A stretch of DNA of 44,274 nucleotides from a bacterium (GTDB lineage: Bacteria; Actinomycetota; Aquicultoria; Aquicultorales; Aquicultoraceae): the NCBI GenBank assembly GCA_902810715.1, contig CADDYS010000008.1, positions 1 to 44,274 of the forward strand, written 5' to 3'. A program made the position numbers and the translations under genes. Shown here piece after piece: positions 13,370-18,516 of the stretch. The number at the start of each line of letters is the position of its first letter. Positions within the stretch are counted from its first letter, which is position 1. The notes under the pieces are model-generated. The model worked only from the letters and a program-made list of their open reading frames with translations. It was not told the origin of the DNA and did not search any database.

Positions 13370-13384
13370 CCGGCTAGGCCGGTT
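13368..13384. terminator. Hairpin shared by two convergent genes
   Basis: AACCGGC-TAG-GCCGGTT overlaps both stop codons of the convergent PfpI-fold and GGDEF/HD-GYP genes. It is short and without a long T tract, so it is only a possible bidirectional terminator. Confidence 0.4.
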
Positions 13385-15587
13385 TGGATTTTGATTGACC
13401 GCCGCGTTTTTCTATGTTCTCGATAAAACTCAGTACCGAGCTGTCTTTCTCGATAACCCGAATCAGGGCACCAACGGCGTTTTCATCCAGCGTAATACCG
13501 CTCTCTTGCCTTAATTCGTCCAGAGCGTCTTTGATGGAAAGAGCTTCTCTGTAGGATGTATCCGAGATCAGCACATCAAATACATCCGCCACTGCAATTA
13601 CCCTGGCATAAAGTGGGATATCTTCTCCCTTTAGCCCATTCGGGTAGCCGCTACCATCGAGCCTTTCATGGTGACAGAGTACAGCTTTAAGCACCGGCTG
13701 CAGGTTCGCCTTTGCCAGCGTTGAGAGTATTCGCTCACCAATTATAGGATGCGGTTTTACCTCTTGGAATTCCTCTTCGGTAAGGGGCCCTGTTTTTTGC
13801 AGTATAAAGGCCGGAATGGCTATCTTGCCGATATCGTGTAGAATACCGGCGATTCTTAAATCCTCGATTTGTGCTACGGTTAGTCCAAGCTCACGGCCGA
13901 TAAGTCCGACAAACATTGCGACGTGTTCGGAGTGGTTGTGCAGGTACTGGTTTTTTGATTCAACGCTTGTTACAAGAGCATGCAGTATATCCATAAGGTA
14001 GGATTCCTCGGTCAGCCACTTGTCCTCTGGGTCTAACTTAACCAGTGGCTCTCCGTTGTATATAAACGTGAGGTTCTTGCCTTGGCGTTTTGCATGGTAC
14101 ATGGCGGTATCGGCCGCCTCGATCACGGTTTCTTTACTAACGCCGTGGTTAGGGAAGGTTGCGATACCCAGGCTGATTGTAATCCTGCCGATATCTTTAA
14201 TCGTTTGAGAAAAGACGCTTAAGCGCAGCCTTTCGGCAACTGTAAACGCCTCATATGATGCTGTCTCCGGCAGTATAATCGCAAATTCCTCTCCACCTAT
14301 CCGGCAAGAAGTATCAATTCCCCTCGTTGATTCTTTTATCTTCTCAGTCAGCAGCTTCAGTGCCTCATCGCCTTTTTTATGGCCGAAGTTATCGTTTACC
14401 TTCTTGAAATCGTCGATATCGATAACTATTAAGCTTAACGGGTGCTTGTACCGCTCAGCCCGCGCAATCTCGTTTGTAAGGGTGTCCTGGAAGTAGCGGT
14501 GGTTATAAAGCCCGGTTAAACTATCCGTATAAGCCCGCTCCTCTAGCTTCTGGCGGTTTTCTTCTAAGGCCTCGCTCATTATATTAAAGCTGGTGGCAAG
14601 CTCATCGATCTCTCTTATATCGGTGTAGTCAATTCTCTGCTTATAGTTACCGTCTGCAATCAGCCGGGCCCTCTGCGACATGACCATTAACGGTTTTGTA
14701 ATGCTATTACTGAATATATAGGCGATAACAGCCATTATGGCAAGCACCGAGAGGTTAATCGTAAGAATGGCGATAACGTTATCTCTTTTAGCCTGGTTAC
14801 CGTTTAACGTAGGTATCAGGGTATAAGCTATTGCTTTGTTGCCACCATTTGTCTTAAGCTCGGTGCGGTCAACAGCGAATGTTGAGTTATATAATAAAGA
14901 GCCATCGATCAGGTCGTCACCCTCTTTAAGAACCTCTTCCTTGAAGCTATCCCTGAGCGCCATATCCTCAGCCATATTGGAGGAGCCGGCAAATAAATTA
15001 CCGTATTCGACAGCAACCTCGGCGCCGGTTTTTTCTTTTACTGTTTTAAGAAGATTTCTATCGATTTTATTTCCGGTTAGAACCAGACCGACTAACTTGC
15101 CGCTCTGCGTGCGTATTGGGGCGACTGCGGTAATCCAGAGGCTATCGTTAGACCGCACAAATAAGCTGACCCGCTCAAGGTCAAAGCCGGCATCGATCAG
15201 CACTTTATGAGTTGGCACGTCGAGCCCAAGTTGCACGAGCTTGTTACCGGTAGCATCGATTATCTTAATAGCGTCGATATCAAAGGTGACCTTTACCGGA
15301 ATAAGTTTCTTTATAAGCGTCTCGGTATCTCCGCGCTCTGTTGCTTCTCTAATAGTTGAATCGGATGTAAGAAATGCAGTCTCGGGCATAAGCTTTTGCT
15401 CTTGCCCGGCGAATTCTTCTTCAATTACGTGTCGGGTGTGATAAAGGTCTGTTTTTAATGCCTGTTCAGCCTGCATTTGTATAAGGTAGATAGATTGCAA
15501 TATTGTTAAAAGGGCTCCAATCAGTGAAATGGAGATAACCGGTATCAATATTCTTTTTCGGATATCGATTTGATATAGAAATTTCAT
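13374..15587 (-). CDS. Membrane sensor with cache-like domain, HAMP, GGDEF and HD-GYP domains
   Basis: 737 residues. Transmembrane helix about 13-35, an extracytoplasmic sensor region to about 285 (cache-like), a second helix, HAMP (about 310-362), GGDEF diguanylate cyclase (GGEEF near 430, intact) and a C-terminal HD-GYP phosphodiesterase with HDIGK near 584 and HHERLDGSGYP near 640. It can in principle both make and degrade cyclic dinucleotides. It is the second gene after a PstS-like lipoprotein, with its SD inside the end of that gene (stop and ATG one base apart), so the lipoprotein may deliver the sensed ligand. Stop is TAG. Confidence 0.93.
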   Translation of the reverse strand: MKFLYQIDIRKRILIPVISISLIGALLTILQSIYLIQMQAEQALKTDLYHTRHVIEEEFAGQEQKLMPETAFLTSDSTIREATERGDTETLIKKLIPVKVTFDIDAIKIIDATGNKLVQLGLDVPTHKVLIDAGFDLERVSLFVRSNDSLWITAVAPIRTQSGKLVGLVLTGNKIDRNLLKTVKEKTGAEVAVEYGNLFAGSSNMAEDMALRDSFKEEVLKEGDDLIDGSLLYNSTFAVDRTELKTNGGNKAIAYTLIPTLNGNQAKRDNVIAILTINLSVLAIMAVIAYIFSNSITKPLMVMSQRARLIADGNYKQRIDYTDIREIDELATSFNIMSEALEENRQKLEERAYTDSLTGLYNHRYFQDTLTNEIARAERYKHPLSLIVIDIDDFKKVNDNFGHKKGDEALKLLTEKIKESTRGIDTSCRIGGEEFAIILPETASYEAFTVAERLRLSVFSQTIKDIGRITISLGIATFPNHGVSKETVIEAADTAMYHAKRQGKNLTFIYNGEPLVKLDPEDKWLTEESYLMDILHALVTSVESKNQYLHNHSEHVAMFVGLIGRELGLTVAQIEDLRIAGILHDIGKIAIPAFILQKTGPLTEEEFQEVKPHPIIGERILSTLAKANLQPVLKAVLCHHERLDGSGYPNGLKGEDIPLYARVIAVADVFDVLISDTSYREALSIKDALDELRQESGITLDENAVGALIRVIEKDSSVLSFIENIEKRGGQSKSKPA

Positions 15588-16479: not shown

Positions 16480-16698
16480 GAGGGTATTCTCCCGACTGTT
16501 CATCTCTTAGGATTTAAAAAGCACATTATAAACCATAGGCTATATTTATATAGTTATCGGCAGCTTTATGTGTTCAATTAGAGGTTTTTCGAATTAGGCT
16601 TACTGTATTACCTCCCGCTTTCACTTGCAGGATTGGTATAAAGGGTCACCCACTTCCCACCGATAGTTTTAATATTAAACGCATGTCAGGTGAGTTTT

Positions 16699-18516
16699 AT
16701 GGGAATAAACCCATTGCTTATTTTTGACCGGTTAAATCACAATACTATAGCTCCCGGTAATGCTGCCTTTATTACTTTCTGCTTGGCTTTGCCTGTGTTG
16801 GTCGCAATCGTTGCTATACGCCCATGGGAGAACAAATATGGAAAAATAAGGGAGAAGACAAAACGAAGAGAGAGGGAGCTTGAGGCTTTAAACGAAGTAG
16901 CTATGGCGGTCGGCAAGTCGATGGATCTTAAGCAGATACTACAAAACGCCCTTTTATCCGTAATAAAGATAGGTAATTTTGGGATAGGGTTTATTTATCT
17001 ATTAAACCAAGAGAAGAATGTACTTGACCTTGTAGCATCCTACGGTCGCATTCCGGATAACCTGGCGAAAAAGTTGTCGTGCTTAAATCTCGGCCAAGAG
17101 GTCTGAGGAATCGTGGCACAGGAAGGCCGGTCGGTCTACCTGGAGGATATTACATCCGATCCGATTGCCAGCCAATCCGAGACAGTAGTCGGGCTGGGTG
17201 TAAAATCCGTAGCCGGAACGCCCCTTCGCTATGAGGACAAGGTTATCGGCGCTCTAACAGTTGGAAGCACTGATGCTAAGACAATAAGCGATGACGATAG
17301 AACTCTTATCGGCTATATGGCAAACGTTATTACGGCCGCCGTTATCAAAGCCCAGCTTTATGGGGCCGAGAGAGAGAATAGGATAAAACTTAGCGCGCTT
17401 GAGAATATCTCCGAGGCCGGTTTAACCACCTTAGGCATCGGTGAGCTGCTAAATGAAATTGCCGAGCGCATGGCCGATGACATGAGCATGGATTGGTCCG
17501 GGATCATCCTTTTTAATAACAAAAATGGAAAGATGATTGTAGAGCACACTTCAAACGGCTATAGCTCTTTAAAAGGCCGGGATTTAAGTAAGCCCTGCAA
17601 GGCAATCAACGATATGTTAGCCCAGGGAAAAACGCAGATTTTAACGGGAAGCGGCTTAAATCAGTTCAAGCCTTACCTTAACAATGCGGGAGTTAAGTCG
17701 ATTGCACTGGTGCCCGTTAATCTAAGGCAGGGCCGGGCTTGCGTGATTTCGGTAGGAAAAAAATCGAACGGCTTATTTAATAAGAAAGAGTTAAGCTTAA
17801 TAGAAACTCTAAGCCACCGGTCGGCGCTTGCGATTGAAAATGCTCTTTTATTCTTAAGGCTGGAAAACTCCTATCTGGAAACCGTCGAGTCGCTTGTTAA
17901 GGCAATCGAGGCCAAGGATGAGTATACCAGCGGTCACTCAGAGCAGGTCGCCGATCTTGCAAGAAGCACGGCTCTTGCTATGGGTATAGACAAAGAGAAA
18001 GCCGAGCGCATCTACATGGCCGGCCTCTTACACGATGTGGGCAAGATCGGAATTCCAAGTAGAATCTTATATAAGCCGTCGAGACTATCGCCAGATGATT
18101 ATAATTCTATTAAGCTTCATCCAACCAAGGGCTACGAGATATTAGAGCCGATTAGCGGCCTTGAAGATATCGCCATGATGGTTCTTCAGCATCATGAAAG
18201 ATATGACGGATCGGGCTATCCCAGCGGACTTCGTGGTGAGGGCATACTCTTGGAGGCGCGAATCTTGGCTGTGGCCGATGCTTACCAGGCGATGACTTCT
18301 AACAGGCCTTATAGGAAACGCCTCCCGGTTAAAGATGCAAAAATCGAAATAAGAAGGGCTATGGGTACCCAGCTTGATCCCGAGGTTGCCCGGGCTTTTC
18401 TATCGGTTCTTGAGAAGCGAGCCGGGTTAAAAGAGTATCGAGACCGCAAGAAAACGAAAGCAAAAGCTAAACCTAAACCTAAACCTAAGAAAACAAAAAA
18501 GACTTTGGCCGGCTAA
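16699..18516 (+). CDS. GAF-GAF-HD-GYP protein with an in-frame TGA at codon 136
   Basis: Read as one frame this encodes 605 residues. A membrane segment (about 10-35) and a short coiled coil precede GAF domain 1 (about 55-215), GAF domain 2 (about 230-390) and HD-GYP (about 395-575; HDVGKIGIP, HHERYDGSGYPSGLRGEG), ending in a Lys/Pro-rich tail. Codon 136 (17104-17106) is TGA inside GAF 1: the frame runs LNLGQEV, TGA, GIVAQEGRSVYLEDI. This matches the family pattern G-x-G-I-x-G-x-VA-x-x-G, with the TGA in a position often filled by Cys, Ala or Ser. Family-typical sequence continues uninterrupted on both sides. Either UGA is translated, or this is a very recent nonsense mutation or sequence error. 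The ATG has an AGGTGAG SD. Confidence 0.8.

Follow-up and report, generated by a model that had tools for sequence, protein, structure and literature searches.

Selenocysteine as the predicted reading of a conserved in-frame UGA in a GAF-GAF-HD-GYP protein of Candidatus Aquicultor

The gene considered here is encoded on the plus strand of a 44,274-nucleotide stretch of DNA, hereafter the window, which belongs to contig C8 of a 2.43 Mb genome (G000) that is 98% complete. Translation of positions 16699-18516 gives a frameshift-free reading frame with a single TGA at codon 136 and a terminal TAA (Table 1). An earlier, sequence-only reading of this DNA had described the TGA as splitting a continuous frame of 606 codons; the frame is indeed intact apart from the one TGA, but the figure of 606 counts the stop, and the protein is 605 residues long. 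Pfam analysis of the joined frame returned two GAF stretches followed by HD_5/HD, with the best GAF stretch (residues 75-215) crossing the TGA. The HD-GYP catalytic motifs, HDVGK and HHERYDGSGYP, are both present and intact, as that reading had noted. Judged by its translation, the protein is of TM-GAF-GAF-HD-GYP architecture and carries the HD and GYP motifs by which a predicted HD-GYP c-di-GMP phosphodiesterase is recognized; the hydrophobic N-termini of its relatives are longer than its own. At the UGA, standard gene calling would break the gene into one ORF at 16690-17106 and a second at 17113-18516, and similar sensor selenoproteins may be hidden elsewhere as 'pseudogenes'. A second c-di-GMP enzyme, a dCache-HAMP-GGDEF-HD-GYP protein, is encoded nearby on the minus strand (13374-15587 of the window).

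Table 1 Features of the predicted selenoprotein gene and their positions in the window.
Feature	Position	Strand	Basis or remark
Ribosome-binding-like AGGTG	16688..16692	+	6 nt 5' of ATG, read from sequence
Complete CDS, predicted selenoprotein, 605 aa, TAA stop 18514-18516	16699..18516	+	one in-frame TGA; same architecture in orthologues
Hydrophobic N-terminal segment (~residues 21-41), presumed membrane anchor	16759..16821	+	read from translation
GAF domain 1 (residues 75-215), contains TGA residue	16921..17343	+	Pfam GAF_2 1.2e-26, GAF 1.7e-17, joined frame
In-frame TGA, predicted Sec136 codon	17104..17106	+	TGA in 8/8 orthologues
Predicted bSECIS hairpin, apical loop 17129-17132	17119..17142	+	folding, published-model fit, codon identity 100% at +7..+10
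GAF domain 2 (~residues 240-388, approximate bounds)	17416..17862	+	second Pfam GAF stretch
HD-GYP domain, motifs HDVGK and HHERYDGSGYP	17893..18387	+	Pfam HD_5 2.6e-40, residues 399-563

In a pattern scan of named genomes, the nearest relatives of G000 fall in Candidatus Aquicultor (Actinomycetota). A search of the 11 family genomes recovered orthologues in seven others, sharing 54-69% identity with this gene and bringing the total to eight. Exactly one TGA lies inside the matched frame of each orthologue, one of which is spread over two contigs, and when the homologues are aligned the TGA column is occupied by TGA in all eight, across several genera, within the motif GQEV-*-G (the asterisk marking the TGA). 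Flanking genes encoding a muconolactone-isomerase-like protein, a secreted protein, a rhodanese and a DHDPS are conserved in several of these relatives. In comparisons between genera, synonymous differences are saturated (pS ~0.7-0.95), and on both sides of the codon pN stays at 0.14-0.34; close relatives give a dN/dS of ~0.1 for the part of the gene 3' of the TGA. Thus, the proposal that selection acts through the stop is borne out by purifying selection on both sides of an invariant TGA, and the relatives show none of the downstream decay that would have spoken against it. An invariant TGA amid saturated synonymous sites, followed by a protein under selection, leads us to conclude that the UGA is translated. 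A recent nonsense mutation, an assembly error or a pseudogene would be suggested by nothing beyond the presence of the TGA itself, and is at odds with the occurrence of the same TGA in eight independent assemblies, with purifying selection downstream and with the intact HD-GYP motifs; its probability is negligible, and the eight assemblies exclude the nonsense and read-error alternatives that the sequence-only reading had entertained.

Two polypeptides might instead be made, by termination at the UGA and re-initiation at the GTG at 17113, to give a split protein. In this genome the sequence GAGG-AATC-GTG does lie directly 3' of the TGA, and 17113-18516 is listed as an ORF. Conservation argues against such a start: the orthologue in G005 has no in-frame ATG, GTG or TTG in the 29 codons shown after the TGA, and the first in-frame start in G010 lies ~20 codons beyond it. 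Re-initiation would furthermore cut the first GAF domain in two, and leaves both the strict conservation of the UGA and the conservation of synonymous sites in the hairpin described below unexplained. We therefore regard it as very improbable.

A general reassignment of UGA in the lineage, whether to Cys, Trp or Gly, is less probable still. What can be said for it is that the assembly yielded neither a tRNA-Trp nor a tRNA-Asn gene, leaving the Trp anticodon unreadable; their absence probably reflects assembly gaps. Against it, the only UCA anticodon found in the genome is that of selC, and the UGA-decoding tRNA-Cys(UCA) that the sequence-only reading had raised was not found. The release factor gene prfB is present (G000 contig C41:18193-19239) with a classic CTTTGAC programmed frameshift site, and RF2 autoregulation at UGA looks intact from this sequence. 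Within the window, 3 of the 31 genes end in TGA, and the orthologues of G001-G003 pass the internal TGA yet terminate at another TGA. Hence, neither the genome-wide sense UGA nor the lost or changed RF2 expected of a UGA-reassigned code is found, and UGA is otherwise an ordinary stop.

Downstream of the codon lies a hairpin, CAGG-a-AGGCC[GGUC]GGUCU-a-CCUG. The published model of the bacterial SECIS (bSECIS) asks for a loop of 3-9 nt with a G in its first two positions, a stem of 4-16 bp, a spacing of 16-37 nt from the UGA and an energy of no more than -7.5 kcal/mol (PMC13188914). The present hairpin agrees with all of these constraints: its loop is the 4-nt GGUC, its upper stem of 5 bp sits on a lower stem, its energy is -13.2 kcal/mol and its spacing is 22 nt. 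In our own implementation of the model, 48 of the 661 TGA triplets on the plus strand of the window pass, and seven reach -13.

Comparison of codons among the orthologues is more discriminating than the model. All eight genes share the apical codons CGG-TCG-GTC, whereas codon identity elsewhere is ~36%. Among 74 amino-acid columns that are invariant and degenerate, the same codon is used by all eight genes at only four, and these are the CGG, TCG and GTC of the hairpin apex together with the GTC directly before the TGA. Similarly, codon identity at residues with four- to six-fold degeneracy is complete at codons +7 to +10 (84/84), compared with 0.37 upstream and 0.35 downstream. Synonymous sites at the apex are thus frozen, and selection acts on the RNA there and not on the Arg-Ser-Val sequence alone. 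The pairs of the hairpin are kept in 95% of cells, as opposed to 19-58% when the hairpin is slid. A covariation test on the hairpin found too few compensatory changes for significance, because its sequence hardly varies. Folding energy relative to shuffles was not unusual (z ~ -0.4 to -1.3), and we consequently do not use it as sole evidence.

The machinery for selenocysteine (Sec) insertion is encoded in the same genome. A search for selA, selB and selC, another check that the sequence-only reading had put forward, found all three adjacent to one another on contig C119: selA (479 aa), selB (633 aa) and a canonical selC with anticodon UCA (76 bits). Among the eight genomes carrying the gene, seven possess selC, and the eighth is only 77% complete. 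No selD was found in this assembly, in which contig C119 begins just before selA. In G007, of the same genus, the cluster on contig C47:319-5348 has the order selD(TGA)-selA-selB-selC; given this gene order, the missing selD is probably accounted for by a contig break at the end of C119.

FdhA serves as an internal control. In this genome, and likewise in every relative, its known Sec site (CARL-U-H) is encoded by an in-frame TGA, and a hairpin of the GCC-GGTCT-GGC type comes after it, containing the GGUC that is also found in the hairpin of the sensor gene. In SelD of eight relatives, the TGA is followed by hairpins of the AGGTC-CGGGA-GACCT type. In the genome G006 (97% complete), in-frame TGAs occur in two FdhA genes (contigs C31 and C34) and the selC-like tRNA-Cys is present, but selC, selB and selD were not found. 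Either an assembly gap spans its sel cluster, or UGA is read there by other means.

Taken together, these comparisons make SelB/SECIS-dependent insertion of Sec at codon 136 very likely. The sequence-only reading had proposed that the UGA is translated, as Cys, Sec or another residue; translation stands, and the residue can be narrowed to Sec because of the conserved SECIS hairpin, the presence of selA, selB and selC, and the TGA of FdhA with its similar hairpin. In the model that we favor, SelB bound to the hairpin would bring Sec-tRNA(Sec), the product of selC with its UCA anticodon, to the UGA. Sec would then enter as residue 136 of the first GAF domain, allowing completion of a full-length, membrane-anchored GAF-GAF-HD-GYP protein. 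When selenium is lacking, synthesis would stop after residue 135 and yield no phosphodiesterase domain, such that output would be selenium-dependent.

One usual hallmark of selenoprotein prediction is missing. A pattern scan of 84,980 species genomes returned no Cys-containing orthologue (0 GQEVCG relatives), a Cys-containing relative was likewise not found among 396 Actinomycetota, and the protein has no CxxU or UxxC motif. The lack of Cys orthologues is unusual and counts against Sec; the hallmark is neither universal nor defining. Indeed, GrdA provides a precedent for a selenoprotein without Cys homologues (PMC1794560).

The most serious competitor to Sec is Cys, delivered through the same machinery. 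G000 encodes, on contig C41:4602-4693, a tRNASec-shaped tRNA-Cys(GCA) with a long acceptor stem, U73 and a 3' end of CCCCC-U (RF01852, 48.9 bits; anticodon GCA by ARAGORN), which fits the description of selC* tRNA-Cys or tRNAReC in shape, in U73 and in a GCA or UCA anticodon. A CysRS-charged tRNA of this kind, carried by SelB, might read the UGA and make Cys the main product. The tRNA is present in this genome and in five relatives (G002, G005, G006, G007 and G008), and a study of the tRNAReC type reportedly has, as its title finding, the recoding of a Sec UGA by Cys through SelB. The selC* type has, moreover, been described as cysteinylated, in other phyla (PMC7609411). Weighed against this, the UGA gene and selC both occur in G003, G004 and G010, where no selC-like tRNA-Cys was detected (E <= 1e-6), and the tRNA is therefore not required for the UGA gene. 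Canonical selC is present in this genome, and sufficiency of Cys would predict TGC or TGT in some of the eight lineages, where none is seen. Cys as the main product is accordingly unlikely, and Sec is the likely residue; occasional Cys at the UGA could occur, and could serve as a back-up under selenium scarcity. The reviewed range of selC* tRNA-Cys comprises only Firmicutes, Thermodesulfobacteria, Nitrospirae and Proteobacteria. The tRNASec-shaped tRNA-Cys(GCA) with U73 in Aquicultor, a member of the Actinomycetota, lies outside that range.

It is tempting to consider what a Sec residue might do in such a protein. Sec136 would lie within the first GAF domain, at its G-x-G-[IV]-x-G turn. Among non-orthologous GAF domains this column is filled by Leu, Pro, Val, Ile, Ala or Phe, and by Cys in only one distant GAF, from a histidine kinase. 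Besides Sec136, the only other invariant Cys/Sec column is Cys348 in the second GAF domain (Cys in 7/7). The best PDB relatives include the haem GAF (GAF-A) of DevS at ~1e-5. AlphaFold2 models were too poor to place the Sec, with pLDDT of 54 for the full protein and 40 for the first GAF domain alone. In the free-Met-R-sulfoxide reductase (fRMsr), the redox Cys of a GVCG motif sits at the equivalent GAF turn. We considered identity as an fRMsr and rejected it: no fRMsr entry is named among the PDB matches to E = 1, and the second active-site Cys appears to be absent.

Sec136 may act as an oxidant, electrophile or metal sensor that controls the HD-GYP c-di-GMP phosphodiesterase, a role to which we give an even chance at most; the state sensed by Sec136 would be relayed to the phosphodiesterase domain. 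More tentatively, and with the balance somewhat against it, an invariant-Sec GAF sensor may place c-di-GMP under the joint control of selenium supply, through decoding of the UGA, and, by way of Sec chemistry, of redox or electrophile state, with exchange of Sec and Cys at the UGA via the second, SelB-compatible tRNA-Cys setting the reactivity. If our reading is true, a second-messenger enzyme with a conserved Sec in its sensory GAF domain would amount to a selenium-based signalling protein, and selenium supply would be linked to c-di-GMP in subsurface Actinomycetota. The gene also lends itself, as a natural example, to comparing Sec and Cys decoding at a single UGA.

As a selenoprotein gene, the locus resembles those of FdhA and SelD, bacterial selenoproteins that depend on a SECIS, in its in-frame UGA, in the selA, selB and selC of its genome, and in a hairpin with a G-rich apical loop ~16-22 nt downstream, FdhA here having the same GGUC loop. 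The tRNASec-shaped tRNA with U73 and anticodon GCA, comparable to selC* tRNA-Cys or tRNAReC, is a separate component that three relatives do not need. Known selenoprotein families are mostly oxidoreductases, enzymes of selenium and sulfur metabolism, and metal or thiol proteins, whereas here we have a signalling protein. No GAF, HD-GYP, phosphodiesterase or c-di-GMP protein figures among the 119 families of prokaryotic selenoproteins catalogued in 2026 (PMC13188914), a 2025 deep-Sep paper adds no such family, and no NCBIfam model is specific to the full protein. A selenium-containing GAF/c-di-GMP sensor is thus apparently undescribed in published catalogues, GenBank-only or unpublished annotation aside. 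Like GAF-HD-GYP c-di-GMP phosphodiesterases, the protein places sensory GAF domains ahead of an HD-GYP domain whose HD and GYP motifs are intact; it differs from them in that the predicted Sec replaces the residue usually found after G-x-G-[IV], which is aliphatic, Pro or, in a single distant GAF, Cys, and in that its output should depend on selenium. With GAF-A of DevS/DosS it has the GAF fold in common; the two are not orthologous, and DevS has Ile at the Sec136 column. The decoding itself would be ordinary bacterial Sec insertion, and the new element is where Sec is used.
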